Assembly: GCA_022865455.1 (NCBI GenBank)
Contig: JALHSY010000046.1
Span: 1 to 41,834 of the forward strand
DNA length: 41,834 nt
Source of the DNA: Candidatus Bathyarchaeota archaeon
Lineage (GTDB): Archaea > Thermoproteota > Bathyarchaeia > Bathyarchaeales > Bathycorpusculaceae
Direction: 5' to 3'
Made by a program: the position numbers and the translations under genes. Positions 2,677 through 32,598 of the stretch are shown one piece after another. The notes under the pieces are model-generated. The model was not told the origin of the DNA. It did not search any database and worked only from the letters and a program-made list of their open reading frames with translations. The stretch's first letter is position 1. Each line of letters begins with the position of its first letter.

Positions 2677-3573
2677 ATCCTTCAAACGCGGGAGTCCCGC
2701 CCTAGCTCCTATTTTCATCACGCATCTTGACGCAACAAAATTGCCGATTCTTCCGCACTCGTAGAGGCTCTTGCCCTTGATTAAACCGTAGAGGAAGCCA
2801 GCATCAAACGCATCGCCGGCACCAGTTGTGTCAACAACCTTCACTTTGAAAGCCTCTATCTGATGACTTTCAGTTCCATCTGTAACGTAGCAGCCTTTGC
2901 TTGCAAGCTTGACAGCCACTATGTTCACGCCTTTCTTGAGGAGAACCTTTGCGCCCGCTTGATAGTCTGCCTTGCCTGTGAGCAGTTCAAGCTCCCCAGC
3001 GTTTGGCATCAAAACGCATGACCGCTCCACAAGCGATTCCAATTTGTTCAGTCCCATCCCCGCATACAGCGCGCCTGGGTCAAGGCTCACTTTGACTTCT
3101 CTAGGAAGCGCTTGCAGTAGTTTCTTCTGAGCCTCGAAGGATTTTGGCCCAACAAAAGACGTCAAGTGCAGAAATCTTGCTTGAAGCGCATATGTGGCAC
3201 TTATGTCCTTAGATTCTATTGTGTCATTTACGCTAGGGTCAATGTACAATGCTCGCTCGCCTTTTTCGTCCACGAAGCCCATGACCGTGCCGCTTCTCCC
3301 GTGTTCTGCCTTGACTATGCCGTTTGTGTCAACGCCTTCTCTGCGGAAATCTTGAACCAGCATTTTGCCTTCTTTGTCGCCCCCAACCTTTCCTACGAAG
3401 CCGACTCTGCAGCCCAACCTCGCCAAGCCCACCATGGTGTTGGCTGCTGAGCCGCCGCAGGCCTCTTCATAGCCTGTTATGAAGCTTTCCTGTTCGGCCT
3501 CGGCTATTCTATTCACTCTGAAGAGTCTGTCTACATTAAGTGCGCCAAATCCCACTGCATCGAAGACTGTCAT
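2659..3573 (-). CDS. PfkB/ribokinase-family sugar or nucleoside kinase
   Basis: This 304-residue carbohydrate kinase transfers phosphate from a nucleotide to a sugar or nucleoside hydroxyl. The PfkB signatures are the N-terminal GG pair in ACGGSAANT (residues 39-45) and the C-terminal DTTGAGDAF (248-256), with Asp254 as the expected catalytic base. The exact substrate cannot be read from the sequence. As last gene of the purF-purD-HAD-ftr operon, a nucleoside or ribose substrate feeding purine metabolism is plausible. Its ATG overlaps the ftr stop by 4 bases. Confidence 0.88.
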
Positions 3574-4484
3574 GGAAACAGCTCACGCAGATAGATCTTG
3601 TAGTCGCCCAGCTTTCCACCATAGTTGCCAGCAGAGATTTTCACCACGCCGTCAGTCTTTGAGGCCGCCTCTATACCTGCTTTCATAGCGTCTTTCACTG
3701 CGCGCATCGACACGCCGTTGATCACTATTTCTGGAATAAACCCTACTCCTTTGGGCACTTTAGTTTCGTTACTCAATTTCTCTTTTAGAGATGGACAATA
3801 CGGATGGTTCGTAGTCGGTCCTATAAGTGGGAAACATGTTTCAGTCTTTGAACCTGCTGAGCAAATGTCGAAGGGGGTTATGACGCCTTCAATTTCGCCT
3901 ATGACTTGCAAAGCTTTTTTCCCAGCTTCCACGACTGCTTTCTTGGTTTTGCACATGTACCAGAAGTTGCCCCCCGCAGTTCCGCGGGCATATCCAACGT
4001 ATCGTTCTATAAGAAAGTCTGGAACCATAATTGGAACCACGATCATGTTGCGACCATAGAGTTGCTTCTCCCACTCGTATCCGTCTCCGCAGTGGCCGAC
4101 TCGCTCCATCATGTCTATTTTGCCTTCAGGCTTCACTGACAACGCATCAAAGAGAGCCGTGAAGGGTTTGACAAGAATGTCTTGGCGAATCCGGTAAGAA
4201 AGCTCTTTTTCAAAACGGTTGACCATGTCTTGCAGAGGCTTCCCTTTGTCCAGACCTTTCCAGAACTGCAAGATTGCTCCTTTTCGTTTGTCAGGTGTTT
4301 CTTTTTCACCTAGCCACTTCTCAATTCCATTGTCGAGTCTTCCGATGACCCCAGATGGCGTTGCAGTCGCGTCTTCCGCTGCCCGCCGTAATGTTTCTTC
4401 GTCGTCTGCGGTGACGAGGAGTCGGCAGTAGAGACCGTCGAAGACTTCTGCGTAAGTGTCTTCGATCTCGACTTTTCCAGCCAT
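3570..4484 (-). CDS. ftr: Formylmethanofuran--tetrahydromethanopterin N-formyltransferase
   Basis: Ftr moves the formyl group between formylmethanofuran and tetrahydromethanopterin in the archaeal C1 (methyl-branch) pathway. The 304 residues match the family length of about 297. Conserved stretches include [13 protein letters not shown] at the N-terminus, [10 protein letters not shown] in the middle, [16 protein letters not shown], and the C-terminal signature [19 protein letters not shown]. The start lies 2 bases after the stop of the HAD gene and the stop overlaps the kinase start, so it is an internal operon gene. Its presence implies a cell with H4MPT-type C1 carriers; on its own it does not imply methanogenesis. 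Confidence 0.93.
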
Positions 4485-4486
4485 CT

Positions 4487-5569
4487 TTATCCCAATCTCC
4501 CGATTGCTTCTCCTCTGACCTTTTTTCTGAACTCGCTGCTTTCTTTCGCCAGAGCTTTCATATTTTCGCTTGTTATTATTTTAACTTTAGGCAGTTCCTT
4601 TGGATACAACTTGAAAAGGATGCTGAGTAAGTTTCGGTTGACATGGCTCTCAACTAATGTCCTGCGGTTCCACTTCTCCGCGAGGCTTAGGACTTCTTGT
4701 TTCCCAAACCTGCAGAAAACATCTGTAATTACCGCTGTCACTATGCCTGTTGCTGACAAGACTGCGATTTCAGCGTTTTCCACCGCGTATTCGTTGCCAT
4801 TAAAGGACACAGTCAAGCCGCCGTTTTCCTTTACAAGTCTGAAAGCCTGCTCGTCCGTTATGCTATCACCTACATACATAACGTCTGCCAACTTAGCACT
4901 TGACCTTTCAACTGCGTCCTCTATCGATTTGGCCTTCTCACTGCCGCCTACAGGGTTGACTCCAGAGAAGATTCTGCTGGACTCCATGTCTATTATTTCT
5001 TTCCAGAAAATCTCGTCTAGTCTTCGAATTTCCCTCAGAGTCTTTTCGGAAAAATCAGTCAAGGATTTTGTGTTTGCGGGGATTTCGAATGTAGGCATAA
5101 GTGCGATTTCCTGCGCGATCTTCTTGAGTTTGGTTTTCTCCTTTTCTGGCATGTGGAGCCTATCGACGTGCAGTTTTGTGCAGTAGGTGTTCTTGTATGG
5201 AAAGTGCAAGATGCTGCACAGGGCTTTTATGTAGTGTTCGTAGCTCGTGCTGACGATGAAGGCGTTGGCGATTCTTCTTGCGTGGCGCAGGGTTTCCTTT
5301 GCATTTTGAATCAGAACAAGGTTTTGGGCTGAGAACTCCTGCATCTTGCGGTCGGTGACGCCATAGGCCTTCAGGAAAGGCAGGATCAATTTTAGAGTGT
5401 CGCCTGCCTTGTAGTGCGGTCTCTTTACAACGTCGGCGAGCACATCATCGTATCGGCTTATGACCGTGAACAGTTTGTCGCCGTTTGGCACGAAGGTTGA
5501 CGTTATTTCGAAGGCGTTGTCGTTTTTTGAAATAGGGCCCTCACAGTCCGAGATGAAAACCTTTCTCAC
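4487..5569 (-). CDS. HAD-superfamily protein related to EhaR (COG4030-type)
   Basis: This 360-residue HAD-fold protein has motif I as ISDCEGPIS (Asp8 and Glu10), a second-motif-like STS at 107-109, and the acidic motif YVGDSITDE at 232-240. The N-terminal [15 protein letters not shown] and the [12 protein letters not shown] segment resemble archaeal proteins annotated as energy-converting hydrogenase A subunit R, whose real reaction is not settled. Motif I has Asp-x-Glu rather than Asp-x-Asp, which is typical of this subfamily as I recall it. It overlaps the purD stop by 4 bases and lies directly before ftr, consistent with a role in C1 or cofactor metabolism. No other Eha subunits are in the window. 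Confidence 0.72.
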
Positions 5570-6981
5570 TTTTCACGCCTCAGCGCATCCATGTGTTTTA
5601 TGCTGCTTTCTATGTGCTGTTCCGAGGCTACGTCTGTTCTATGCCAAAGCGCTCCTCCCTTGATTGCTGCCACTCCTTCAAGAGAGATTTGTCTGGCCGC
5701 CTGAATGTCTTCCCCAACGCCTACGACACACACAGCTCTGGACTTGAGGGCAAAGGTTCCATTTCCACGAAGCTCCATGGAGCCTGGATAGACTCGGATT
5801 TTGTCACCGTACTTCTTGCTTAGTGCATACGCTTTTTTCAGGTCAACTGGCTTGTCTACTTCCTCAGGATTCACCAAGCTTGGAAAAGCATCGGCATATC
5901 CCCCATAATTCGGCGGAGCCTCGTAGGTTACGACTGTTGCAGCCTCTTCCAATGCGATGCGTGTCAGGTTGCCTTCCAAGATTCTGTAGCAAACGTCAAC
6001 GAGATCGTCTTTCATGATTGGCAGAACGTTGATGATTTCAGGGTCTCCGGGTCGACTGTTGTTCTCAAGAATCTTCGACCCTTTGCCAGTGTGCATGAAA
6101 GCCACGTAAAGCGGAACTCCTCGCAAGGCAGTCTTGTCTTCCGCTGTGGTTTTCCATTTCTCAAAAATCCTAGTGACTATTTCCTCTTCTCTCGCCCTTT
6201 CATCTCTGGTCAAGAAGGGAAGAACGTAGCCTGTGCTTTTGTATGAGCCCATCCCGCCAGTGTTCGGGCCCTTGTCGCCGTCAAAGGCTCGTTTGTAGTC
6301 TCTCGTGTCTGGTAGCGGCACCAAGTGCTTTCCGTCGCAGAAGGCTTGGAAGCTTGATTCTTCGCCTTCTATTTTTTCTTCTATAATAACAGAACCGTAC
6401 TGGTAGTTTGAGAGAAAATGCTCGAAAAGCTGCTCGCGATTCGAGAAGTGGTCTCCCCAGACGCCGACGCCTTTTCCCGCCGCTGGTTTGTCTGGTTTTA
6501 CGACTGCTTGATTGTCAAGTGTGTCAAGCCAGTCGTAAACCGCTTTCTTTACTTCTGACGTGTTCTTGTAGTCTTTTGGATCGTAGATTTTGAAGCGTGG
6601 ATTTACACTCGGCACTATCTTCTGGAACAGCAGTCGTTGCTGGACTTTGCTTTCCTCGATGGCGTATTCTTTGGTTGGGCATATCATCGGTATGCCCGTT
6701 TTCTTTTCGATGAGGTCGCGGATGCCTTCGATGATAGGCTTTTCCGGGCCGACTATGCCGAAGTCTATGCGGTCTTTGTTTGCTTCTGCGAATTTTGAGA
6801 TTTCGTTGATGTTCAGGTCTGGGATGACGACGTGTTTTGTGGAGTTTCTGAGGTTGAAGGGGTTGAGTTGTTTGTCGGCGACGTAGAGTTCAGTGTTGTA
6901 TTCTGTGCTTCTTGTGAAGGCGTCGACCATGGCTACTTCTCTTGAGCCGTAGGATACTACGAGTATGCCAACTTTCTCCAT
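5566..6981 (-). CDS. purD: Phosphoribosylamine--glycine ligase
   Basis: PurD (GAR synthetase) joins glycine to phosphoribosylamine with ATP. The protein of 471 residues starts at the ATG at 6981 (MEKVGILVVSYGSREVA). The frame stays open upstream, but that extension is Arg/Gln/His-rich, has no family similarity and overlaps purF in antisense-frame style, so I reject it. ATP-grasp features include VVKPDKPAAGKGVGVW, EEKIEGEESSFQAF and the signature FDGDKGPNTGGMGSY. The gene lies 50 bases downstream of purF and overlaps the HAD gene by 4 bases. It is slightly longer than bacterial PurD (about 430). Confidence 0.95.
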   Translation of the reverse strand: MEKVGILVVSYGSREVAMVDAFTRSTEYNTELYVADKQLNPFNLRNSTKHVVIPDLNINEISKFAEANKDRIDFGIVGPEKPIIEGIRDLIEKKTGIPMICPTKEYAIEESKVQQRLLFQKIVPSVNPRFKIYDPKDYKNTSEVKKAVYDWLDTLDNQAVVKPDKPAAGKGVGVWGDHFSNREQLFEHFLSNYQYGSVIIEEKIEGEESSFQAFCDGKHLVPLPDTRDYKRAFDGDKGPNTGGMGSYKSTGYVLPFLTRDERAREEEIVTRIFEKWKTTAEDKTALRGVPLYVAFMHTGKGSKILENNSRPGDPEIINVLPIMKDDLVDVCYRILEGNLTRIALEEAATVVTYEAPPNYGGYADAFPSLVNPEEVDKPVDLKKAYALSKKYGDKIRVYPGSMELRGNGTFALKSRAVCVVGVGEDIQAARQISLEGVAAIKGGALWHRTDVASEQHIESSIKHMDALRREK

Positions 6982-7031
6982 AATTGACCCGTCAGACTTT
7001 GATGAACTTGAATGATTAGTTTGCCCTTGCG

Positions 7032-8672
7032 CTATGATGTCTCGACGGCTTCTTCTATTTCGTAGATTCTGCCTGTTTCTTCGTAGCCTTCTAGGAATTT
7101 CTTCTTCATTTTGTCGGCGATTTTCTGAGCCTGCGGCGTGGGGTATTCGCCTGTTATGCATGCGGTGCAGAGCTGATTTCGTGTAAAGCCTGTTGCCTTG
7201 ACTAATCCTTCTATTGATTGGTAGCATACGGCGCTGGCGCCTATGATTTTGGCTATTTCTTCTGGAGTGTGTTGTGAGCCTATGAGTTGGCCGTATGTTG
7301 CCATGTCTATGCCGTATAGGCATGGGCCGATTATGCGTGGGAATGTTACAAACATGTAGACTTTTTTGACGCCCATTCTGCGGAGTTTTTCTACTGTGAC
7401 TCTGGTGGTGTCTCCTCGGACTATGCTGTCTTCGACGAGTATCACTCGTTTTTCTCTGATTTTTGGCGCGAGGATGTTGATTTTTCTGTCTATGGTTGAC
7501 TGTCGTTCCTTGTTGAGAAGGATGAAGGCTCTTTCGGTGACATATCTGTGTCTTCGTGAGGCTCTTTCCCATCTCAGTCCAGATTGTTCGTGGACGCCCA
7601 TGGCGGGGTCGTCGCCTGTCTCAGGCACTGAGAGGATTATGTCAGCGTTCTTGACGATTTCGGGGTTTTCTCTTACGAGGTTTCTGCCGAATTCTTCGCG
7701 TATCTCGTAAACGTATTTGTCATCGAATATGGAGTCTGGTCTTGCGAAGTAGGCGAATTCGAACGCGCAGAAAGCTTTTCTTTCGCCTTCGACGAGTTTT
7801 TGTCTCATGAATCCGCTTGGCGAGACCTTTACGAGTTCGCCTGGTTCGAGTTCAAAGTCTCTTTCGAAACCGTTTATGTCCAAGCTTACGGTTTCTGACG
7901 AGAAAGCGTAGGTTGACCCGTCCCTGCTGTGGCCGGCGCATAATGGCCTTATTCCGTGGGGGTCTTTGAAGGCGAAGAATTGGCCGTCCCGTGTGACGCA
8001 TGCTACGGAGAAGGCTCCGTCTATTTCTTGCATGCATACCTTGACGGCGGAGGCGATGCCCTTGCCCTTTAGCATTTCAATCATGAGCTTGTGGCAGACG
8101 AGTTCGGCGTCGCATTCGTATGAGAATGCTGGAAATTTTGTTTTGATTTCCTTTGAGAGTTGGAATACGTTGACGATGTTGCCGTTGAAGGAGATGGCGA
8201 TTTTCAGCCCGTTTTTGGAGGCGGTTACGGGTTGTGTGCCCCTTATTAAGGATTTTTCGTCTGTTTTTCCGGATGTTGTGTATCTGACATTTCCGATGCC
8301 TAGGTTTCCTGGGAGTCGCCCGAACCATTCTTGGATGGCGCTTGACTTTATTTTGGGAACGAGGTCTAGGCTTCGGTGGATGTGGAACTTCCCTTCGTGA
8401 AATGTGAGGAAGCCGTGTGATTGGTGGCCTCGATGGTTTTGAGCTCGGAGTCCCCAGTATATGTATGAGAATATGGGTTGGTTTTCGTAGTTGATTGCGG
8501 CGAAGACTCCACAGCCTACGTTGGTTTCCCCCTCTCTGATGATTCGCAAGTAAGAGGAGGGATGTTTATCAGCTTTTAGGACATTTTCAAATAAAACTGT
8601 TATCTCCACTATATTATCTCCACTGATTTCTCCCGCGCAATCCCCTCTTTTTTTGTTTTCAAGCGCGCACAC
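7032..8672 (-). CDS. purF: Amidophosphoribosyltransferase PurF
   Basis: PurF makes phosphoribosylamine from PRPP and glutamine, the committed step of purine synthesis. The N-terminal Ntn glutaminase domain begins at CGVFAAINY (Cys54 in the longest frame), followed by WGLRAQNHRGHQSHG and the oxyanion element SFNGNIVN. The phosphoribosyltransferase domain carries the PRPP loop VILVEDSIVRGDTTR at 410-424. In this family the Cys becomes residue 1 after propeptide removal. The 53 residues before it in the longest frame are unusual, so a TTG start at 8549 (12-residue propeptide) or a GTG at 8609 is possible. First gene of the leftward operon. Confidence 0.94.
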   Translation of the reverse strand: MCALENKKRGDCAGEISGDNIVEITVLFENVLKADKHPSSYLRIIREGETNVGCGVFAAINYENQPIFSYIYWGLRAQNHRGHQSHGFLTFHEGKFHIHRSLDLVPKIKSSAIQEWFGRLPGNLGIGNVRYTTSGKTDEKSLIRGTQPVTASKNGLKIAISFNGNIVNVFQLSKEIKTKFPAFSYECDAELVCHKLMIEMLKGKGIASAVKVCMQEIDGAFSVACVTRDGQFFAFKDPHGIRPLCAGHSRDGSTYAFSSETVSLDINGFERDFELEPGELVKVSPSGFMRQKLVEGERKAFCAFEFAYFARPDSIFDDKYVYEIREEFGRNLVRENPEIVKNADIILSVPETGDDPAMGVHEQSGLRWERASRRHRYVTERAFILLNKERQSTIDRKINILAPKIREKRVILVEDSIVRGDTTRVTVEKLRRMGVKKVYMFVTFPRIIGPCLYGIDMATYGQLIGSQHTPEEIAKIIGASAVCYQSIEGLVKATGFTRNQLCTACITGEYPTPQAQKIADKMKKKFLEGYEETGRIYEIEEAVETS

Positions 8673-16777: not shown

Positions 16778-16863
16778 ACGGAAGGATAACTAATGACGTT
16801 GGAGCGTGTGCATTCTGCATTATCAAGAGATAAGCAGATGCCATGCTCTATGAGGTGAAACTG

Positions 16864-17925
16864 ATGGCTGATTGGACTACGCCTTCTGCTATTCACAGCA
16901 AATGTGGACAAACAAGCACTTACTATGCCACAAAAGCTATAGACACCGACACAGGAACGTATTGGAATCATAACGTCACTGAGCTGCATTGGATTATTTT
17001 TGATATGGGAAGCACTAAAACAATCACTAAAATCAAACTGTTTCAAGTCGCAGGCTATAGATGGGGTGAAAGTTCAGGTCTTACCGTGTATGTGGGCGAC
17101 GACCCCGCAAATCTTGGTGCCTCAGTTTGGGACGGAGTATTAAACGCTGACGGTTGGCAAGAGAGTGGAGCTTTCAGCAAGGATGGTCGATACATTAAGT
17201 TGGTGACCAAGACCCCAGCTTCATATCAACGTATGTATGAGTTTCAGGCTCTTGTAGAGACGGCGATAATCAAATCTTGGGCTGGAAGTCTAAACGTAGG
17301 TCACGCTTTGAGCAGACCATATCGTTCCATGAAGTTAATACCAACCTTGAACGCTACACACACGTTTACACGACCAACACGCTTTATGAAGTTGACGCAA
17401 ACCGCAAACTTGACTCACACCTTCTTGAGACATCGTTTCATGCGGTTCACGCAAGCATTACAAGCACTTCATACATGGACGGTAACTAAACCCGGATTAA
17501 TTCTTAAACAATGGGCTGCGACTTTACAATTATCACACACTTTCAAAAGACCTTTAAGACTAATGAAATTTACTCAGACACTTCAAGCCGTCCACACTCT
17601 CACATTAAAACGCCTCTTCAAATTCGCCCAAACCCTAAACCCTTCACACATCTTCAGGAGACCACAACGGAAAATAGGTTACACACAAACCTTGCGAACC
17701 ACACACATCTTTAGCAGACCATTCCGAGTAATCACGTTTCCAGTATCATTACAGTTAACCCATCTCTTCTCGAGACCTTCACGGGTAATCACTTGGCTGC
17801 AAACCGTAGGGCCTATCCACGAATACTACGTGATTAAGCCTGGCGTGGAACCCATGAAAATCATGCTACTGCTGGGCAACATTGGAATCAATCCTAAAAC
17901 AGGCGAGATTATATTCGTTCTGTAA
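16864..17925 (+). CDS. Discoidin (F5/8 type C) domain protein with about ten 19-residue repeats
   Basis: The ATG at 16864 has GAGGTGA 4 bases upstream, giving 353 residues. Residues 3 to about 130 form a discoidin-like beta sandwich (DTGTYWNHNVTELHWIIFDM, then KTITKIKLFQVAGYRWGE), a fold that often binds glycans. Residues about 134-330 are around ten repeats of 18-21 residues with consensus TQTL-x3-HxFxRPxRxMKF. Repeats 1-3 and 7-9 are most regular; repeats 4 and 6 lack the RP. The DNA of the repeats has diverged, so the expansion is old. A receptor-binding fibre or spike is likely. I recognise no named family for the repeats. Confidence 0.68.
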   Translation: MADWTTPSAIHSKCGQTSTYYATKAIDTDTGTYWNHNVTELHWIIFDMGSTKTITKIKLFQVAGYRWGESSGLTVYVGDDPANLGASVWDGVLNADGWQESGAFSKDGRYIKLVTKTPASYQRMYEFQALVETAIIKSWAGSLNVGHALSRPYRSMKLIPTLNATHTFTRPTRFMKLTQTANLTHTFLRHRFMRFTQALQALHTWTVTKPGLILKQWAATLQLSHTFKRPLRLMKFTQTLQAVHTLTLKRLFKFAQTLNPSHIFRRPQRKIGYTQTLRTTHIFSRPFRVITFPVSLQLTHLFSRPSRVITWLQTVGPIHEYYVIKPGVEPMKIMLLLGNIGINPKTGEIIFVL

Positions 17926-18407
17926 TGATTAATCAGATTACCTTATTTTTTAATGCTTATTGTCCCGCAAGAATGCTTACGTTTTCGCACTCGTATCTTA
18001 CTATTAAATATACGTTGTTGGAGCCTTGGCTGTTGGTTGCCGTAACGCCTGAAAGTGTTCGAGAACGCATAAACGTCAATGCAGCTGAAGCGCCTGACGA
18101 TGTTGTCAACCGCTTCATAACCGATGCTGCTGTAACGGTTGAAAGCGAAACTGGGCTTGAGATTGACCCTGCAAACTGTACCGATGCGGAGGCTGTGGCT
18201 ATCCGAAACTTGGCAGCTATCTATTGTGCTTGTCGAATAACTGGCGGCTCGGCTGCTGGGCTCAGCTTTCGCGTGGGCGACCTTGCTGTCAACGAGTCTA
18301 GTAGCTCCTCGCCTAGTGGATTGAGCAGTAGCAACCTTGAGTTCTTGTATAATCAAGCCCTCAAGATAATTGACAATTTGAAGCAGCCCTACGTGGGAAG
18401 GGTATAG
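17925..18407 (+). CDS. Head-tail connector (gp6-like adaptor)
   Basis: From about residue 40 the chain matches the helical head-tail adaptor pattern: TPESVRERINVNAAEAPDDV, VVNRFITDAAVTVESETGLE and CTDAEAVAIRNLAAIYCACR, then a Ser-rich linker and a last helix. This is the usual ring bound to the portal. The first 35 residues (MINQITLFFNAYCPARML) look unlike the family, so the true start may be the in-frame TTG at 18034. ATG overlaps the stop of the repeat protein. Confidence 0.62.
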   Translation: MINQITLFFNAYCPARMLTFSHSYLTIKYTLLEPWLLVAVTPESVRERINVNAAEAPDDVVNRFITDAAVTVESETGLEIDPANCTDAEAVAIRNLAAIYCACRITGGSAAGLSFRVGDLAVNESSSSSPSGLSSSNLEFLYNQALKIIDNLKQPYVGRV

Positions 18408-18409
18408 CC

Positions 18410-20032
18410 ATGGGCACCGTTCCCGACGCTTATTACGACTTTGTCATGCATTATGCGCCTTGGTTTTATGTGATAACTACTGCTATGGCTGCTGATCCGC
18501 CTGCTGGCCAGAAGAATGTCACGGTTGCGGATGGCACTAAATTTAGTGCTGGCATGCCCTGCGAAATCAAAGACTCAGCTCACAGCGAATGGAATGAAGT
18601 TGATTCTGTTGCTGACAATGTTGTGACCATGAAAAACAATCTAGCCCATACTTATTATGTGGCTAAAGGCGGAACCGTGGATCACGGGGATAAGAGTTTT
18701 GGAAAGGGCGCTTTTCCAGCTGCTTTTGCCATCGAGTTTCTGTCTGAGGCTTATTCTGTTCCTCAGTTTACTTCTTTGCAAGCGACTATTTTGACGAAGA
18801 TTGTGGAATTGGCTACTTGGCTTCTTACTCAACAATCCACTGATCCAGCGAAAAAAGCTTATGGCGGGTTCAAATCCGCTGAGTCGAGTACTCAGTATTG
18901 GGCTGTTGATGCGGGTCGTGTCATTCCTGCTCTGTTGAAAGCGTATGCCCTGACGTCGACTGCAGGCTATTTGGATGCTGCTAAGCTCGCTGGTTACACT
19001 TTTCTCTACACGATGCAGCAACAACCAAGCATTCTGGGCATTCATGACAAATACTATGGTGGCTTCGCAAACTACGTCAGCATAACCGATACATGGGACA
19101 CTGTGATGAGCATTGAAAACTTATACTGCTTGATCGCCTTGAAGCTCTTGGCGGACACGTACGATGTGGCTAATGCCTCTCGGTACAGTGTCATGATGGC
19201 AGATGCTGCAGGCTTCCTCAGGGATGGGTTTGAGCAGCTCTATTTGTATTATCAACCTCCGCCTTCGGGTTCTGGCGTCTGGTACCGAGTGGGAATTAAT
19301 GATACCGAAGTCTATGATGATCCTGTGAGCTTCGCTCTGCTGGGGCTGTACGTGTATGAAGGCTGGAGTTTCACGTGTCAACGCGCCTACAACTTCATTC
19401 AGTCGATTAGGGCTTCGGGGCAATATCCTGCTTATTGGCCAGAGATCTGTTGGCCAGGCTATGTTGATGTGGTTACGAGGTTCCCAGCATGTGCGTACTA
19501 TGATGCGATCACTACGGGAATCTTGTGGAAGATCAGGAAAGAGCGAGATCCTCCAAGCTTCAAGCTTGGCCACGATGTCGTGAGCAAGTATAGTGACGAG
19601 TTTCTTTATTGGGGCCCTGTTTTCACGGATTATAGTCCGATCACGGCGCAGAAGGCTATGGCAAATGTCACATGGCTAGCCCGCATGTTTCTCAACTACG
19701 AGGAGCCCTTGACTAGGTTCATGAAGATTTTGAATAGCAAAGGCGAGGCTGTCCTCCTTTACCCAATCCGTCAAGCTGTTGAGACTGTTTCTTATGGCGA
19801 GGCTTTGGACTTATTGGCGATTGTTTCGCTTGTCAGAGCTGAAGAGGTTCTCTTGGAGGCTGGATATTTGCTGAATGACTATCTTGCCGTCTATACTTTC
19901 GTGCCGGTTCGCAATCATGACAAGATACATCGCAAGGGCGAGGATTACGAGCTACAGAGCGTTCAACCTTTCACTTTCGAGAATCAGACGATTTATTTCA
20001 AATCGATTGCGAGGAGGTTGTTAGCGGCTTGA
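18410..20032 (+). CDS. Neck protein with inserted alpha/alpha-toroid (six-hairpin glycosidase-like) domain
   Basis: The 540-residue product has three parts. Residues 1-95 carry a small beta domain (KNVTVADGTKFSAGMPCEI). Residues 100-440 are helical hairpins typical of six-hairpin glycosidase folds (YWAVDAGRVIPALLKAYALT, IENLYCLIALKLLADTYDV). The C-terminus, VPVRNHDKIHRKGEDYELQS then PFTFENQTIYFKSIARRLL, resembles the end of phage head-closure (stopper) proteins. This implies a neck protein carrying a carbohydrate-active or glycan-binding insert. Catalytic acids cannot be assigned by eye. It lies between the connector and a tail-terminator-like gene, as a stopper should. Confidence 0.55.
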   Translation: MGTVPDAYYDFVMHYAPWFYVITTAMAADPPAGQKNVTVADGTKFSAGMPCEIKDSAHSEWNEVDSVADNVVTMKNNLAHTYYVAKGGTVDHGDKSFGKGAFPAAFAIEFLSEAYSVPQFTSLQATILTKIVELATWLLTQQSTDPAKKAYGGFKSAESSTQYWAVDAGRVIPALLKAYALTSTAGYLDAAKLAGYTFLYTMQQQPSILGIHDKYYGGFANYVSITDTWDTVMSIENLYCLIALKLLADTYDVANASRYSVMMADAAGFLRDGFEQLYLYYQPPPSGSGVWYRVGINDTEVYDDPVSFALLGLYVYEGWSFTCQRAYNFIQSIRASGQYPAYWPEICWPGYVDVVTRFPACAYYDAITTGILWKIRKERDPPSFKLGHDVVSKYSDEFLYWGPVFTDYSPITAQKAMANVTWLARMFLNYEEPLTRFMKILNSKGEAVLLYPIRQAVETVSYGEALDLLAIVSLVRAEEVLLEAGYLLNDYLAVYTFVPVRNHDKIHRKGEDYELQSVQPFTFENQTIYFKSIARRLLAA

Positions 20033-21018
20033 GCGAGCTCGAAGATCCCATCATAACTCTGCTGCGGTTGATTACTACGAGGATCCGTGTAGTCAAGGAT
20101 AACGGTTCGCATGCCAGCATTCTGGCGACGAAAGAGGCTTATGATCGGGAGCTGCTCAAGGAATATGACGCTCAAATAACAATGGGGCTCGACAGCAGCC
20201 AGGACCAGAAACTTGAGCTTGCTGGACGTCTGAGACGTCGCTCTATGGTTTTCAGATGTAACATCTACACGGTAGACAAGACGGCTCCTGGAGCTGATGC
20301 GGGCAAGGTCATGCGAGATAAGGTGACTGCTCAAATCAACGCTATCATCCGCGAGAACCGAAACTTGCCATATCAGACGGTTTACAATTTCTATGGGCTC
20401 GGATATCCTAGCGGAGATCCGCACAAGGCTTTTGCTGCAGGTGCAGCCACTGAGCTCTCGCCTTCGAGCACTTCTTGGGCTGAGCTCACAAACCTAGAGT
20501 ATCAGAAGATCTGGTCCAGCGACGATGTTCGCCACAGCAAAAGCGTGAGCGTTAACGGCCAGTACGGGTTGATGTTGTTTAGGCTCAAGCTAGGCCCACG
20601 GGAGAACTGCGTCAAGAAGATAGTTCTCAGTTTCGAAGGATACGGGACTTCCCCCGGGGGAAATGGAGTTACGATTAAGATTTGGAATCATGTCGCTTCC
20701 GCCTGGCAAGAAGCCCAGTCTGGGACTGGCGGTGGAGATGAAACTCTTACTATCACGATTTCAGCTAACTGGCCTAATTTCATTGATTCGAGCGGCTATG
20801 TTTGGCTTCTGGCCAAGACTGCGAACCCAAGCAATGGGTCTACGCCTGCGGTTCTCTATTGTGATTTTGTTCAGTGCACGATTCAGGTTTATGGATTAAC
20901 TCATTGTGACGTCGTGAGCTACAGGAATATTGACGTCACGGATGTTAAGCCGTACCTTTCTAGAGCCGAGTTTCTGTTGAAGGGTTGGCTTTTCGAGTCG
21001 ATTTCAGGAGTATTCTAG
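20029..21018 (+). CDS. Tail-terminator-like neck protein with inserted beta-sandwich
   Basis: The 329-residue product starts at a TTG overlapping the previous stop. Residues 1 to about 130 and the last 40 residues (SYRNIDVTDVKPYLSRAEFL) look like parts of one neck or tail-completion domain. Residues about 140-290 form a beta-rich insert with KIVLSFEGYGTSPGGNGVTI and an aromatic/Gly pattern (SSGYVWLLAKT) like carbohydrate-binding modules. The family call depends mainly on position before the tube gene. Confidence 0.5.
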   Translation: MSELEDPIITLLRLITTRIRVVKDNGSHASILATKEAYDRELLKEYDAQITMGLDSSQDQKLELAGRLRRRSMVFRCNIYTVDKTAPGADAGKVMRDKVTAQINAIIRENRNLPYQTVYNFYGLGYPSGDPHKAFAAGAATELSPSSTSWAELTNLEYQKIWSSDDVRHSKSVSVNGQYGLMLFRLKLGPRENCVKKIVLSFEGYGTSPGGNGVTIKIWNHVASAWQEAQSGTGGGDETLTITISANWPNFIDSSGYVWLLAKTANPSNGSTPAVLYCDFVQCTIQVYGLTHCDVVSYRNIDVTDVKPYLSRAEFLLKGWLFESISGVF

Positions 21019-21039: not shown

Positions 21040-21906
21040 ATGGTTGATACGTATGGAGTTGACGAAGAGCGGTTCTACTATGCGACCGAAACTGTCTTTG
21101 GCACTACGCCCACGAATCCGTCAATGTTAAGCGTGCCCTGTGACGTCATTGACCCGGGATTTGATCCCAGCAACCTCAAACTTAGAGGCGCTGGTAGCTA
21201 CGACCTGCAAGCAATAAAGAAGGGCCTTCGGAAGCCCAGCCTCAAGGTTGGCTATGTGTTGCCTTCTGCAGCGCCTATTGAACTGCTTCAATGGGCAAAG
21301 ATGGACCTAGACAAAAGCCTTAGCTGCCAAGTAATCTATTACAAGGGAACCTTCGCCTCTGCCACGGATATCATTTCATTGCTTTTCAAAGGCATACGCA
21401 TCAGCAAGGTCTCGGTCGAGTGTAGCATTGAAGATGTCGTCAAGGCTGTGATGGAGCTTGAAGGTCAGGATCTCGAGACAGGAACTGCAAAGATTACAGG
21501 AGCAACCTACACGGACCATGGTGGCGCAGTTGCTTTTCATGAAAGCTATGTGAAGAAGGACACAACAGTTCTGGACCGCGTTACCGATTGGAAATTTGAT
21601 ATCATCAATAATCCAAGAAGAGTACCAGTAATTCGCACGTCAAACGGACATCTTGCGAAGTACATTCCATTCGGACACAGAGAGCTCTCTGGAGAACTCA
21701 CGTTTGAATTTGAAAGCAAGGCAGAAATGGATGAAGCATTAGTCGATACGGAGTTTACGTTGGAATTTGGGTTAAGTGGGACGAACAAGGCTGTTTTCAC
21801 CTATTGTAAATGGGATAACATAACGCATTCGAAATGGCTTGAGGATCTGATCTGCGCTAAGGCTCGGTTTGTCGCCAAGGGCCCTGTTGCGATCAGCGCC
21901 AGCTAG
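21040..21906 (+). CDS. Major tail tube protein
   Basis: The 288-residue product fits the tube-protein pattern: an N-terminal GVDEERFYYATETVFGTTPT, a LRGAGSYDLQAIKKGLRKPS strand pair, and HRELSGELTFEFESKAEM near the C-terminus. It is followed by two small chaperone-size genes and a tape measure, the standard tail order. A long tube protein in a single copy suggests a non-contractile (siphovirus-type) tail, since no sheath gene is seen. Confidence 0.7.
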   Translation: MVDTYGVDEERFYYATETVFGTTPTNPSMLSVPCDVIDPGFDPSNLKLRGAGSYDLQAIKKGLRKPSLKVGYVLPSAAPIELLQWAKMDLDKSLSCQVIYYKGTFASATDIISLLFKGIRISKVSVECSIEDVVKAVMELEGQDLETGTAKITGATYTDHGGAVAFHESYVKKDTTVLDRVTDWKFDIINNPRRVPVIRTSNGHLAKYIPFGHRELSGELTFEFESKAEMDEALVDTEFTLEFGLSGTNKAVFTYCKWDNITHSKWLEDLICAKARFVAKGPVAISAS

Positions 21907-22574: not shown

Positions 22575-22640
22575 ATGGATCAGATGGTCCTCGAGGAAAA
22601 GGAAAAGGCGGAGAAAGAGGCGAAGAAACATGGCCGTTGA
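22575..22640 (+). CDS. Short Lys/Glu-rich peptide or -1 frameshift extension of the chaperone
   Basis: From the ATG at 22575 the frame gives 21 residues (MDQMVLEEKEKAEKEAKKHG plus R). The same frame is open upstream into the chaperone gene, in the -1 register relative to it, from at least position 22470. It ends 11 bases inside the next gene. It may be an independent peptide, but a translational fusion is the more familiar arrangement in tail operons. GCAAAAA at 22536-22542 is only a partial slippery site. Confidence 0.35.
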   Translation: MDQMVLEEKEKAEKEAKKHGR

Positions 22641-22998
22641 AATAACCTGCGACATCGAAGGTGTTGAAGAGTTTCAAGTGGCTATGCAGAGGTTTGACTC
22701 TGCAATGCAAAATCAGGTCTACCGCTTTCTAGCTAGTTGGGCGGCTGACGTCAAGGGTGCAGCGATGCGGAACGCTCCAGTCCGCTCTGGCTACCTTCGC
22801 AGCACAATCTACGCAACGATTAAGGATTGGGTTGCCCAGATCGGCGCTGAAGCCACTTATGCTCTCTTCGTGGAGATGGGAACACGGCACATGCAAGCTC
22901 GGCCCTTCCTGTATCCAGCCATCCAGGAATACCTTCCTATGCTCGAAATGAATATCGTCGGGGCCCTCGAGCAGGCTAAAGCGGAGGCTGGCTTATAG
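22630..22998 (+). CDS. HK97 gp10-like neck/minor tail protein
   Basis: The 122-residue product has the family's hallmark NAPVRSGYLRSTIYATI and YALFVEMGTRHMQARPFLYP segments, followed by a C-terminal helix. The family joins head to tail or completes the tail. Here it lies after the chaperone gene and not among the neck genes, which is out of the common order. The stop shares a base with the GTG start of the next gene. Confidence 0.82.
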   Translation: MAVEITCDIEGVEEFQVAMQRFDSAMQNQVYRFLASWAADVKGAAMRNAPVRSGYLRSTIYATIKDWVAQIGAEATYALFVEMGTRHMQARPFLYPAIQEYLPMLEMNIVGALEQAKAEAGL

Positions 22999-23540
22999 TG
23001 TCATTTCGGGAAATTGCAGTTACGATTCGAGCGGTTAACCGGGCTAGTGCAGAGTTCTCCAGGATTCAGACCGACGCTGAGGCCCTCTCTGTGAGGGTGA
23101 AGAGTCTTGGCGCCGCTATTGCTGGTTTAGGCGCGACTGGGCTAGCTATCGGGCATATTGCTCACCAATTCGGCATATTAAATGATGAGCAAGCTAAAGT
23201 CTTCAATTCTGCTATGATGGTTGTCACGGTTATGGGCATGTTTATGCGGACTAGTATGGGCGTGGCCATCGCTCAGAAGGTCTACGCTGCTGCATGCTGG
23301 ATCGCTACTGCGGCCCAGAACAGCCTCAACATTTCTTACGCAACATTTCTAGCTCTAACAGGGGTCGGGATTGCCGTGATCGTCGCGGCTGCCGCAGCCA
23401 TGTGGTCTTTCGCAAGCAGCATGAATGCAGCCACATCTAGTGTCCAAGGCTTCAACGCAGCCACTAGCGAGGTGCCTTCCCGTAGTCGTGGCGTTCAGAG
23501 AGCTGGAGAGCAAGCCATGTATCGCAGAGGAGTTGAATGA
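22998..23540 (+). CDS. Short tape-measure-like protein
   Basis: The 180-residue product starts at GTG. The opening (EIAVTIRAVNRASAEFSRIQ, then DAEALSVRVKSLGAAIAGLG) is that of tape measure proteins. Two hydrophobic stretches follow (VIVAAAAAMWSFASSM and MMVVTVMGMFMRTSM). At 180 residues it is far below the usual 600-2000. It would set a very short tail, or it is the remnant of a longer gene cut off near SEVPSRSRGVQRAG. The next gene overlaps its end by 8 bases. Confidence 0.6.
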   Translation: MSFREIAVTIRAVNRASAEFSRIQTDAEALSVRVKSLGAAIAGLGATGLAIGHIAHQFGILNDEQAKVFNSAMMVVTVMGMFMRTSMGVAIAQKVYAAACWIATAAQNSLNISYATFLALTGVGIAVIVAAAAAMWSFASSMNAATSSVQGFNAATSEVPSRSRGVQRAGEQAMYRRGVE

Positions 23541-29353: not shown

Positions 29354-31459
29354 GTGGAGGTGAGAATAACGTTAAATTCCGAAGAGGAACAAATACCTGC
29401 AAAGGTAACCGAGATGCCACCTAAGAAGAAGAGAAAACAAGAGGCACTCACAGTCTCAAGGCTCATACACGAAGTCTTAGTAAGCCAACTGAGCATCCCA
29501 CTACACCAAATCGTGAATGACACAACGTTTGCAGAGTACACTGGGTCAAAACGTCCTGACCTCTTAATTTCTGAATTTGAGTACGATCGAGTGAAGAAAA
29601 ACGATGCCCAATTCATCAATAATCTTGTTGCTTACGCGGAAGCCAAAGACGACTGTATTGTGAAAGGTGTAGATTGGTTAGATGCGATTCAGCAAGGTCT
29701 GACGAAAGCTCCGAAGCTCAAGCTTCCTTATTTCATCGTAACGAATGGTAAGACCAGCATATTTTACAATGCCAAGACTCAGAATGAAATAAAACTCAAT
29801 GGTAATCCGATTAGAGAATTTCAGACAATAGATATTCTTAGGTTAATAAAGAATCGGCTTTCAAAAGACCCTGATTTAGATAACATAATCACTAACGTAG
29901 ATTCAATCTCGGTCATCTCAGAAGCGATATTCAACAAGAAACTATGGGAACTCGCAAAGATTTACAGGAACATAAATTTCGAAAACAATGTTCAAAAAAT
30001 AGACTTCACGGTCGGCTTCATTTCACTGGAGTATTTTGAGGAAAGAGAAACGATAAAGGGAGTGAAAGACGCAACCAAGATTTACTGGTCAGATTGCTCA
30101 AACCATGCAGCGAATTATCCCTCTGAGAAGATTGTGGCAAGTCTTTCTCGGTATATAGAAAGACTGGAACAGGAATCGCAATTTGGCGAGTTTGTTGATT
30201 TAATGGAAAAGGTTCACATTGCGATAGCTGGAAAAGGAACAGTTAAACCATTAGTCAGCCATGACGAAGTGAAACAGGTCTATGAATTGATAGATTCGAT
30301 GAAACCTCTTCATGGTTGTGGCTTCGACCTCTTTGGGGCTGTCTATGAAATGTTCGCTAGTAGCAAGGAAAAGAAGGATTTTGGCGAATACTTTACTCGT
30401 AGACATTATGCACATATTCTTACAAAACTACTCCTTCGCAACGAACAGTATTTTGATGAAAACAGGAAATTTAGGATACTTGACCCAGCTTGCGGTACAG
30501 GTGGATTCTTGACAGAAGGTTTCAAAGTACTGCGAAATGCTTATGCTAAAACTAACACGCTGACTGCAAAAGCTGAAAAATTTCTAGAAGAAGATTGTTT
30601 CTATGGAATTGATGTAAGAAGAGAGAATATTTCCAGAACGAAACTTAACATGTTCTTGGTTGGAGATGGACACACAAATATGGAGGATATTAATACTTTA
30701 ACGAAGAAATTCGGCAAAGGAGACCTATGGGATTATGTTATTACGAATCCACCAGTTGGTGCAGGAACAATCAGAGCTGAAACATCTGTAGTTTCATCCA
30801 ACCGTACCGAAGTTTGTTTCCTATACAAAGTTATTAGCCTGCTCAAAGATGGCAAAAAGGCTTGCATCTTACTCCCTGATGGTATTCTAGAAAATGCACA
30901 ATTTACAGAACTTAGAAAGGATTTGTTGGAGAAATGCGATATAGAAGCAATCGTGTCTCTTCCGAAATTTGCTTTCGCCCCCTACACAAAAGAGAAGATG
31001 TATGCTGTTTTCTTTACGAAAAAGAACGAGGCAATGACCAAAATCCAGAAACAACCGATATGGATGTACATCATAGATAATGACGGTTTGGCAAATTCCG
31101 ACAAACGCTTTCCCACGAAATTGCGGAATAATCAAAACGGATGGTTGCATGATGAGATTTCAGGATGGGTAAGTACTGATGGTGAAGAAATGGTTGGATT
31201 GCTTGAAGAAAGGTGGCTCAAGTCTGATGATTCTTCAACAGATGGCACACAATGGATTGGTGAGAAAGGACAAGCTGTCAAATTCAGAAAAGGAGGACTC
31301 ATATCAATAACGGCAATTACGGAAAAGAAGTCACAGTATTGCCTTCTGCCAGAATATTATCTACGCCCATTCAAGCCAAATTTCATAACTGCCGAAGAAT
31401 TATCTGAAGAGATCAGCTTGATTGAACAAGAAGTCAAAAACTTAGAGGCAATCGCATGA
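29354..31459 (+). CDS. Restriction-modification protein: HsdR-N-type nuclease fused to N6-adenine methylase
   Basis: The 701-residue product starts at GTG. Residues about 35-145 form a PD-(D/E)xK nuclease of the HsdR N-terminal type, with Asp69 in KRPDLL and Glu96/Lys98 in AYAEAKDD. Residues about 300-600 are an HsdM-like methylase with SAM motif I LDPACGTGGFL (376-386). Catalytic motif IV reads NPPV (465-468), where the family nearly always has an aromatic residue after NPP. A fused nuclease-methylase plus separate specificity subunit resembles BcgI-like type IIB systems. No translocase HsdR gene is visible. It overlaps the specificity gene by 4 bases. Confidence 0.8.
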   Translation: MEVRITLNSEEEQIPAKVTEMPPKKKRKQEALTVSRLIHEVLVSQLSIPLHQIVNDTTFAEYTGSKRPDLLISEFEYDRVKKNDAQFINNLVAYAEAKDDCIVKGVDWLDAIQQGLTKAPKLKLPYFIVTNGKTSIFYNAKTQNEIKLNGNPIREFQTIDILRLIKNRLSKDPDLDNIITNVDSISVISEAIFNKKLWELAKIYRNINFENNVQKIDFTVGFISLEYFEERETIKGVKDATKIYWSDCSNHAANYPSEKIVASLSRYIERLEQESQFGEFVDLMEKVHIAIAGKGTVKPLVSHDEVKQVYELIDSMKPLHGCGFDLFGAVYEMFASSKEKKDFGEYFTRRHYAHILTKLLLRNEQYFDENRKFRILDPACGTGGFLTEGFKVLRNAYAKTNTLTAKAEKFLEEDCFYGIDVRRENISRTKLNMFLVGDGHTNMEDINTLTKKFGKGDLWDYVITNPPVGAGTIRAETSVVSSNRTEVCFLYKVISLLKDGKKACILLPDGILENAQFTELRKDLLEKCDIEAIVSLPKFAFAPYTKEKMYAVFFTKKNEAMTKIQKQPIWMYIIDNDGLANSDKRFPTKLRNNQNGWLHDEISGWVSTDGEEMVGLLEERWLKSDDSSTDGTQWIGEKGQAVKFRKGGLISITAITEKKSQYCLLPEYYLRPFKPNFITAEELSEEISLIEQEVKNLEAIA

Positions 31460-32598
31460 CCGAGTTTCTAGATATTTTTAAGCCAATTCAAAAGGGCAAT
31501 TTCGGTCTTACTGATGAAGCCATTTATAGATCAATTCAGCATGGGGGTCAATTCATCCCTGTATATGGTGGAACAAAAGAACACACTACGACAGACCGAT
31601 TCGTTTCAGAATATGGAAAAACGAAGTATGATGGATCTATTACGATTTTCACTGGTGATGGGATAATCATCAGTCTTGATGGGAGTTCAGGATGCATGAC
31701 CTATGTAATGGCTAAAAGATTCGCTCTAAATCATCATGCGGGATTCTTTCAGTTAAAAGAGGATGCAAAACAAGTAATTGACCCAGAGTTCTTCAGTCTC
31801 TTCTTTGAGAAACAACTTCAGGAAGCGAGCGTTAGCGAAGGCTCTAAAACATTGACCCTAAGTATGATAGAATCTATGGATTTTGATATGCCTCCGTACA
31901 GTGTCCAAATGAAGGTCATGTCAAGAATAAGATCACTTTTGAAAGTGAAAGAGAGAGTCAATAACCTGATCTCAAGAATAAATTCCGTCAAAGAAAGAAT
32001 ACTTTTGGTTGAATATCGAGATTATCAAGCAAAAGATGTTTCTGTTGGAGATGTTCTGGATTGCATGAGTGGAAATTCTGGACTTACAGAAGAGTATCTA
32101 TATTCGCAAATTAAAGATAATTCCGAAAAAAAATATCATATTTTGACAGCTAGCACCGAGCATGAATTGAGTCAGTATGTGTCTAGATGCAAACATCCAA
32201 AGGATTCAAGCAAAATGATAACAGTCGTGGAAGGAAAACCTGTGATTCATGTCGTACGAATCGGAAAAGCAGGCTCTGTCACATATTTTGAAAACGGCGA
32301 TTATACCACCACTGAAAATGCCTATCTTCTTTATTTGAAGGATAATTTGAAATACGATCTTAGCCTCAAATGGCTAACGTATGCACTAGCACCAGAGTTT
32401 TCGGAGTATTCCAACATTGCGGAATATGGAACTTGGAATATGACTGGTTTTTTCGAGCGTGTAAAGATTGCTATTCCATCTTATGAAGAGCAACTCGAAC
32501 TTGTTGAGAAGTATGAACGCCTTGAACTACTACAAGCAAAGTTACAAAGCATTTTGACAAAGATTGACCAACTCTTCACTAAGCAAATAGTTATCTAG
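31456..32598 (+). CDS. hsdS: Specificity subunit (HsdS-like)
   Basis: The 380-residue product has two target-recognition halves, each closed by a helical coiled coil: QMKVMSRIRSLLKVKERVNN near residues 153-172, and EQLELVEKYERLELLQAKLQ near the end. The first half ends SMIESMDFDMPPYSVQMKVM and the second NMTGFFERVKIAIPSYEEQL, the repeated -PPY/IPSYEEQ- hallmark of HsdS. It would direct the fused nuclease-methylase to a bipartite DNA site. ATGA overlap with the upstream gene. Confidence 0.85.
   Translation: MTEFLDIFKPIQKGNFGLTDEAIYRSIQHGGQFIPVYGGTKEHTTTDRFVSEYGKTKYDGSITIFTGDGIIISLDGSSGCMTYVMAKRFALNHHAGFFQLKEDAKQVIDPEFFSLFFEKQLQEASVSEGSKTLTLSMIESMDFDMPPYSVQMKVMSRIRSLLKVKERVNNLISRINSVKERILLVEYRDYQAKDVSVGDVLDCMSGNSGLTEEYLYSQIKDNSEKKYHILTASTEHELSQYVSRCKHPKDSSKMITVVEGKPVIHVVRIGKAGSVTYFENGDYTTTENAYLLYLKDNLKYDLSLKWLTYALAPEFSEYSNIAEYGTWNMTGFFERVKIAIPSYEEQLELVEKYERLELLQAKLQSILTKIDQLFTKQIVI

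Follow-up and report, generated by a model that had tools for sequence, protein, structure and literature searches.

Why do two successive proteins in the neck of a presumptive archaeal virus each carry a domain of carbohydrate type? This question is raised by a 41,834-nucleotide stretch of DNA from a Candidatus Bathyarchaeota archaeon (hereafter, the window), which forms one contig (C181) in a 2.0 Mb metagenome-assembled genome. The left 7-8 kb of the window comprise cellular genes for purine biosynthesis and related functions, and beyond them lie major-head-protein-like, tail and terminase genes. Because of this arrangement, the window most likely represents an integrated provirus, the host of which would be a member of Bathyarchaeia. 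How viruses cross the surface coats of archaea is poorly understood, and the uncultured Bathyarchaeia offer little material for such work. The neck module consists of the following genes, in this order:

17925..18407, + strand: head-tail adaptor (gp6-like connector) with weak Pfam Phage_connect_1 and PHROG head-tail adaptor matches; its real start may lie further in
18410..20032, + strand: toroid-stopper fusion of 540 aa, identified from an AlphaFold2 model, fold searches and 121 distinct relatives
20029..21018, + strand: tail terminator of 329 aa with an inserted jelly-roll (AlphaFold2 pLDDT 87.7)
21040..21906, + strand: tail tube protein, the anchor of the module (Pfam Phage_tube_2, E 9.6e-13)
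22630..22998, + strand: undecorated HK97 gp10-like neck or tail completion protein (Pfam PF04883, PHROG 5)

The stopper and terminator genes overlap by 4 bases, the terminator gene is followed by the tail tube gene after a 22-base gap, and the adaptor gene is kept directly 5' of the stopper gene in relatives. Just 5' of the adaptor, at 16843-17925, the window encodes a protein that combines an F5/8 type C (discoidin-like) domain with a repeated TQTLQ..HTF.RP-like motif; homologues of this protein are present in only four of 101 loci. A 180-aa protein at 22998-23540 is conserved in 129 loci at the position expected of the tape measure and gave no family match; if it is the tape measure, it would set a very short tail of roughly 25-30 nm, and a collar would lie near the cell surface. 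Lower-GC DNA 3' of the terminase gene (29354-32598) carries type I restriction-modification methylase and specificity genes.

The 540-aa product of the stopper gene was modelled with AlphaFold2 from 50 aligned sequences (pLDDT 86.9, pTM 0.89). Residues 1-437 have the fold of a six-hairpin (alpha/alpha)6 toroid and match toroid enzymes at Z 21-26.5. The best match is CPF_2247 (Z 26.5 over 292 residues), followed at Z 21-24 by GH76 mannanases, GH88/GH105 unsaturated glucuronyl hydrolases and sugar 2-epimerases. Residues 437-540 have the small beta-barrel fold of stoppers of the SPP1 gp16 type, and a C-terminal stretch of ~113 residues matches the Pam3 neck protein (8hdr_A) with a TM-score of 0.75 by target length. 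In a viral structure library, the strong matches are mostly proteins of ~100-170 aa, several of which carry the name head-to-tail stopper or head-tail adaptor, and the top BFVD match is F9VHN7, with 585 aa. In the window as well as in relatives, the stopper gene lies between the adaptor gene and those for the terminator and tube. The protein is divided as follows:

18410..18484, + strand: residues 1-25, toroid helix 1, common to short and long relatives; structural matches to the toroid start at residue 1
18485..18688, + strand: residues 26-93, variable Rider-like beta domain between toroid helices 1 and 2, absent from short relatives
18689..19705, + strand: residues 94-432, remainder of the (alpha/alpha)6 toroid (VIA-align Z up to 26.5)
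19718..20029, + strand: residues 437-540, complete head-to-tail stopper domain, matched by a naked stopper (L102, below), the Pam3 neck protein and viral stoppers

The border between toroid and stopper is set by L102 (genome G064), a locus with the same gene order in which a 113-aa stopper and a 153-aa terminator are both undecorated. The full length of this bare stopper aligns to window-protein residues 437-538 at 25% identity (E 2e-14), and it matches PHROG 939 (E 8.6e-8). Because the bare stopper covers these residues only, end to end, the alignment indicates that the toroid is an N-terminal fusion to the stopper and not an insertion in it. Between its major capsid and adaptor genes (5081-7238), L102 has genes that by eye are NAD-dependent sugar-epimerase-like and glycosyltransferase-like. 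Profile searches that sought one enzyme family for the toroid gave marginal matches only, to C5-epimerase and GH88; for C5-epim_C (Pfam), the window protein reaches 13.4 bits against a cut-off of 23.3, which is passed by the toroid stoppers of two relatives. No relative of the toroid stopper was found by protein search in 50,697 phage records, a DNA search of phage records gave no match, and sequence searches with the stopper fusion and the terminator as single proteins returned no relatives among solved structures. In L170 (G170:C11), the end of the stopper reads into another frame and is joined to the terminator as one 795-aa frame, and in L166 (G054:C10) the toroid is split at residue 402; these breaks may reflect frameshift decay, sequencing error or recoding.

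The product of the second decorated gene has the core fold of a tail terminator of the lambda gpU, SPP1 gp17 and T5 p142 type, matching T5 p142 (Z 13.7) and T4 gp15 (Z 11) in fold searches. The 147 residues aligned to T5 p142 are spread over model residues 2-325, and the matches to a beta-sandwich span residues 115-288:

20371..20892, + strand: residues 115-288, inserted CBM-like jelly-roll

The best structural match of the jelly-roll is a baseplate domain of Staphylococcus phage phi812 (9eui_D, 9euf_H; Z 14.4), and CBM29, CBM22 and CBM16 are matched at Z 8-9. A naked 148-aa terminator (L061) aligns to residues 1-114 (44% identity) and 289-329 (51%) and to nothing between; since only the two flanks are matched, the sandwich is a true insertion. 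The jelly-roll is absent in eight of 122 terminators, and a toroid stopper occurs without the sandwich at seven loci (L061, L121/L180, L175, L186, L194, L195 and L199). Phage relatives of the jelly-roll are found in a baseplate protein (phi812, by structure) or beside baseplate genes (a relative by sequence), which suggests a role of the domain in host attachment.

The initial annotation of this locus had described a toroid inserted in a stopper-like protein and a beta-sandwich inserted in a terminator-like protein of an archaeal virus, each between ends that still look like neck proteins. Models and fold searches recover two successive neck proteins with one carbohydrate-type domain each, and the archaeal virus as well as the identities of stopper and terminator are borne out by structure prediction, fold search, gene order and naked orthologues. 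The insertion in the terminator also holds, both by its absence from the naked L061 relative and by the predicted neck-like flanks on its two sides. For the stopper, the toroid fold stands but its insertion does not: the predicted neck-like end is C-terminal only, corresponding to the bare L102 stopper, and the N-terminus is the toroid itself.

The same annotation had missed the beta domain at stopper residues 26-93. The relatives form two classes, long and short, and because members of the short class align only to residues 1-25 and 94-540, residues 26-93 are, as judged from the alignments, a separate insertion in the toroid. Weak Pfam K1-lyase_Rider matches were obtained for this domain in 21 of 50 members. 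It is present in 58 of the 107 relatives mapped on a tail-tube tree, with at least seven changes of state, while the terminator sandwich shows at least four, counts in which gain and loss are not distinguished. A tail protein of L102 (12430-14439) has a Rider-like domain with 36% identity over 47 residues to window residues 26-93, and G083:C8 (49693-52219) encodes two related domains, one of them in a 1357-aa frame. In L060 (5694-6206), a further domain of ~160 aa is nested inside the toroid of the stopper; its homologue in L023 (7391-7897; 42% identity) is nested in the sandwich of the terminator, and distant relatives are found in Acidovorax and Aeromonas phage proteins. The decorations are modular and recur across different neck proteins.

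Relatives of the toroid stopper were found in 226 viral contigs with an alignment query, of which the best 80 were kept, and in 28 of 100 related genomes with a single-sequence query. Since the viral contigs had been retrieved through their similarity to the toroid protein, that set is biased. For this reason, presence rates were taken from a tube-anchored set, in which the tail tube was found in 31 of 256 genomes of the class and the genes upstream of it were read. The toroid is present in 42 of the 43 recognisable stoppers of this set, the sole bare one being that of L102; as for the other loci, L201 lacks a recognisable stopper, three lie at a contig end, and L182 lacks the module around the tube. 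In a survey of 398 genomes from the phylum, every near-full-length toroid lies in the same gene order and, except for broken or cut copies, in a frame long enough to include the stopper; no free-standing cellular version was seen. Relatives in named genomes belong to Bathyarchaeia with three exceptions, one being a record titled only 'Crenarchaeota'. The other two, L106 and L107, with toroid stoppers 57-58% identical to that of the window, lie in Gallionella and Bipolaricaulis bins, possibly as a result of misbinning or of a wider host range. L108 lies on JAAKEZ010000002, the contig of the published provirus BATPV1, and the toroid-stopper gene was thus already in public sequence. Between adaptor and tube, L201 encodes a 450-aa protein (3189-4541, the same as L304 13189-14541, G168:C21), residues 3-278 of which recur in frames of 318-409 aa (relatives L305-L308) and are TIM-barrel-like by eye; its C-terminal part is terminator-like, with a weak match to the terminator profile, and it may be a further case of an enzyme-type domain in a neck protein.

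Could this architecture be a product of gene calling, misassembly or an over-read predicted fold? We give this reading practically no credence. The few split or frame-damaged copies (L166, L170) are what it would produce, but the architecture is uninterrupted in about 120 distinct sequences from independent assemblies, both models have high confidence, and the domain borders fit the naked orthologues. Chance is excluded because the same architecture is conserved in 121 distinct stoppers. Gatekeeper ring proteins thus prove able to tolerate a 430-residue fusion and a 174-residue insertion.

In the 121 distinct stoppers, mean pairwise identity is 62.5% for the toroid versus 55.7% for the stopper domain, and in the terminators it is 57.6% for the jelly-roll versus 50.4% for the core. 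The near-invariant acids of the toroid are D94 and the following:

18908..18910, + strand: D167, at the start of an inner helix
19316..19321, + strand: the pair D303-D304, at the start of an inner helix
19502..19504, + strand: D365 of a YYD motif, before an inner helix, in a segment with pLDDT <50 (353-365)

On its mouth side, the toroid has near-invariant positions that include these five acids together with R170, W291, R293, Y363, Y364 and W401; invariant residues are also found away from the mouth (E317, R376 and D380). First-turn positions are invariant in 29% of cases in inner helices versus 9% in outer helices, and when the mouth side as a whole was compared with all other positions for enrichment in invariant residues, the p-value was 0.077, which is suggestive only. 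Mouth segments 335-341, 353-365 and 407-411 are modelled at low confidence. Judged by residue conservation, the pocket of the toroid is under constraint, and it is plausible that the toroid is an enzyme. The initial annotation had suggested a search for catalytic acids: near-invariant acids lie at plausible positions, but they could not be matched to the catalytic residues of any established enzyme family. D167 and E236 were considered as a pair of acids of the GH88 kind and dropped, since E236 is V, L or I in distant members. AGE-type epimerases use a histidine-based mechanism; no near-invariant histidine was seen in the toroid of the 121 stoppers, which argues against such a mechanism.

The unmatched catalytic set, the variable position of E236 and the pairing of the toroid with a CBM-like ring are all compatible with a toroid that has lost catalysis, such that both decorations bind glycan and neither cuts it. 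We consider this rather unlikely, in that D167, D303, D304 and D365 are nearly invariant, while a pure adhesin that faces host change is expected to be variable. The decorations could also be free of any ligand and serve to widen or brace the junction of head, neck and tail, with the N-terminal part of the stopper contacting the adaptor. A toroid that is highly conserved, almost universally retained and invariant at E317, R376 and D380 would fit this role, and in the siphophage R4C, N-terminal extensions of the stopper bind the adaptor (PMC10276861). However, a bare stopper and a bare terminator work in the syntenic L102 provirus, the sandwich came or went at least four times, both rings recruited folds of carbohydrate proteins, and the mouth bears conserved acids and aromatics; a purely structural role is, therefore, unlikely. 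During siphophage assembly, the stopper is added at head completion, and the presence of the toroid in such a component would agree with an intracellular function at head closure, be it in the handling of cell wall or host glycan at exit or as an aid to folding or docking. This is a very improbable alternative, as a complete bare stopper exists in L102 and carbohydrate folds in two successive rings would be left unexplained.

Based on these data, we favor, as somewhat probable, a model in which the virus wears a two-tier glycan-interacting collar built from its own gatekeeper rings. In this model, the collar parts, as identified computationally, are the N-terminal toroid of the stopper, which is of the glycosidase/epimerase type, and the CBM-like jelly-roll of the terminator. 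In siphophages such as R4C, the stopper and the terminator each assemble into a hexameric ring (PMC10276861), and if the same is true here, about six toroids and six jelly-rolls would encircle the head-tail junction and form a collar that faces outward. By analogy with their relatives, the jelly-rolls would bind a host surface glycan, and the toroid, with its conserved acid-lined mouth, would bind and possibly trim the same or a neighbouring glycan. As a result, the particle would hold the host coat, be it the glycan of the S-layer or a different surface polysaccharide, ahead of or during engagement of the tail tip. The S-layer is one candidate target, which none of these data single out. We infer that the most likely function is decoration of the virion with glycan-active domains at a distance from the tail tip, because the sandwich has relatives among phage baseplate modules and the head of the archaeal virus HFTV1 bears a glycan enzyme-like domain. 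The two-tier collar is supported by the carbohydrate folds, the neck identity of both proteins, the naked orthologues, the retention of the toroid in the tube-anchored set, the conserved acids and the precedents discussed below; it is weakened by the p-value of the mouth-side test, the low-confidence parts of the mouth, the lack of a matched catalytic set and the existence of L102 without both domains. More specifically, it is possible, though doubtful, that the genome-sealing stopper is also an active glycan-processing enzyme, present in about six copies per virion and working together with the CBM ring of the terminator. If so, sensing of the host coat could be coupled to the DNA gate. To our knowledge, no tailed virus has been described in which the stopper includes an enzymatic ring. 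Glycan handling at the neck is testable with this system, since both proteins are expressible and have well-defined borders, undecorated orthologues serve as natural controls and specific residues are named.

Neck-borne CBMs and head-borne glycan enzymes are already known kinds of decoration. In the lactococcal 936 and P335 siphophages, the neck passage structure (collar, whiskers) carries CBMs at the neck, and one of these bound the host in assays (PMC6669499). The similarity is in function only. The lactococcal structure is made by a protein of its own, which is dispensable and has a BppU-like N-terminal ring as its base as well as coiled-coil fibres (PMC6669499), whereas the domains described here are not carried by such a protein but are covalent parts of stopper and terminator, and one of them is an enzyme-type toroid. 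HFTV1, which contacts its host head-first (PMC9973310), has a turret head protein, gp31, with galactose-binding-like and polysaccharide-deacetylase-like domains, for which binding and degradation of S-layer glycan have been proposed; according to its authors, no carbohydrate-degrading structural protein was known earlier in archaeal viruses (PMC12494034). Like the virus predicted here, HFTV1 is an archaeal tailed virus with glycan-type domains on the virion away from the tail tip, but in HFTV1 these are in separate turret proteins on capsid hexons rather than in the neck, and their folds are different. Individual parts likewise have counterparts elsewhere. T5 p142 shares the terminator core but is without the inserted jelly-roll; the Pam3 neck protein and the SPP1-type stoppers share the fold of residues 437-540 but have no N-terminal toroid. 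CPF_2247, GH76, GH88/GH105, the sugar 2-epimerases and glucuronyl C5-epimerase, the last with the marginal sequence match, share the toroid fold but are cellular, about 10% identical and without a neck domain, and their catalytic residues are not matched. The phi812 domain that is the best match of the jelly-roll lies at the tail tip of a bacterial phage and not in a terminator. The combination was not found in phage records or among the PDB and BFVD matches listed, and a word search of the main text of two papers on Bathyarchaeia viruses (PMC10848311, PMC11705971) found no mention of it. What appears to be new from these searches is an enzyme-type toroid fused to a genome-sealing stopper together with a CBM inside the terminator, a pair kept through a group of archaeal viruses.
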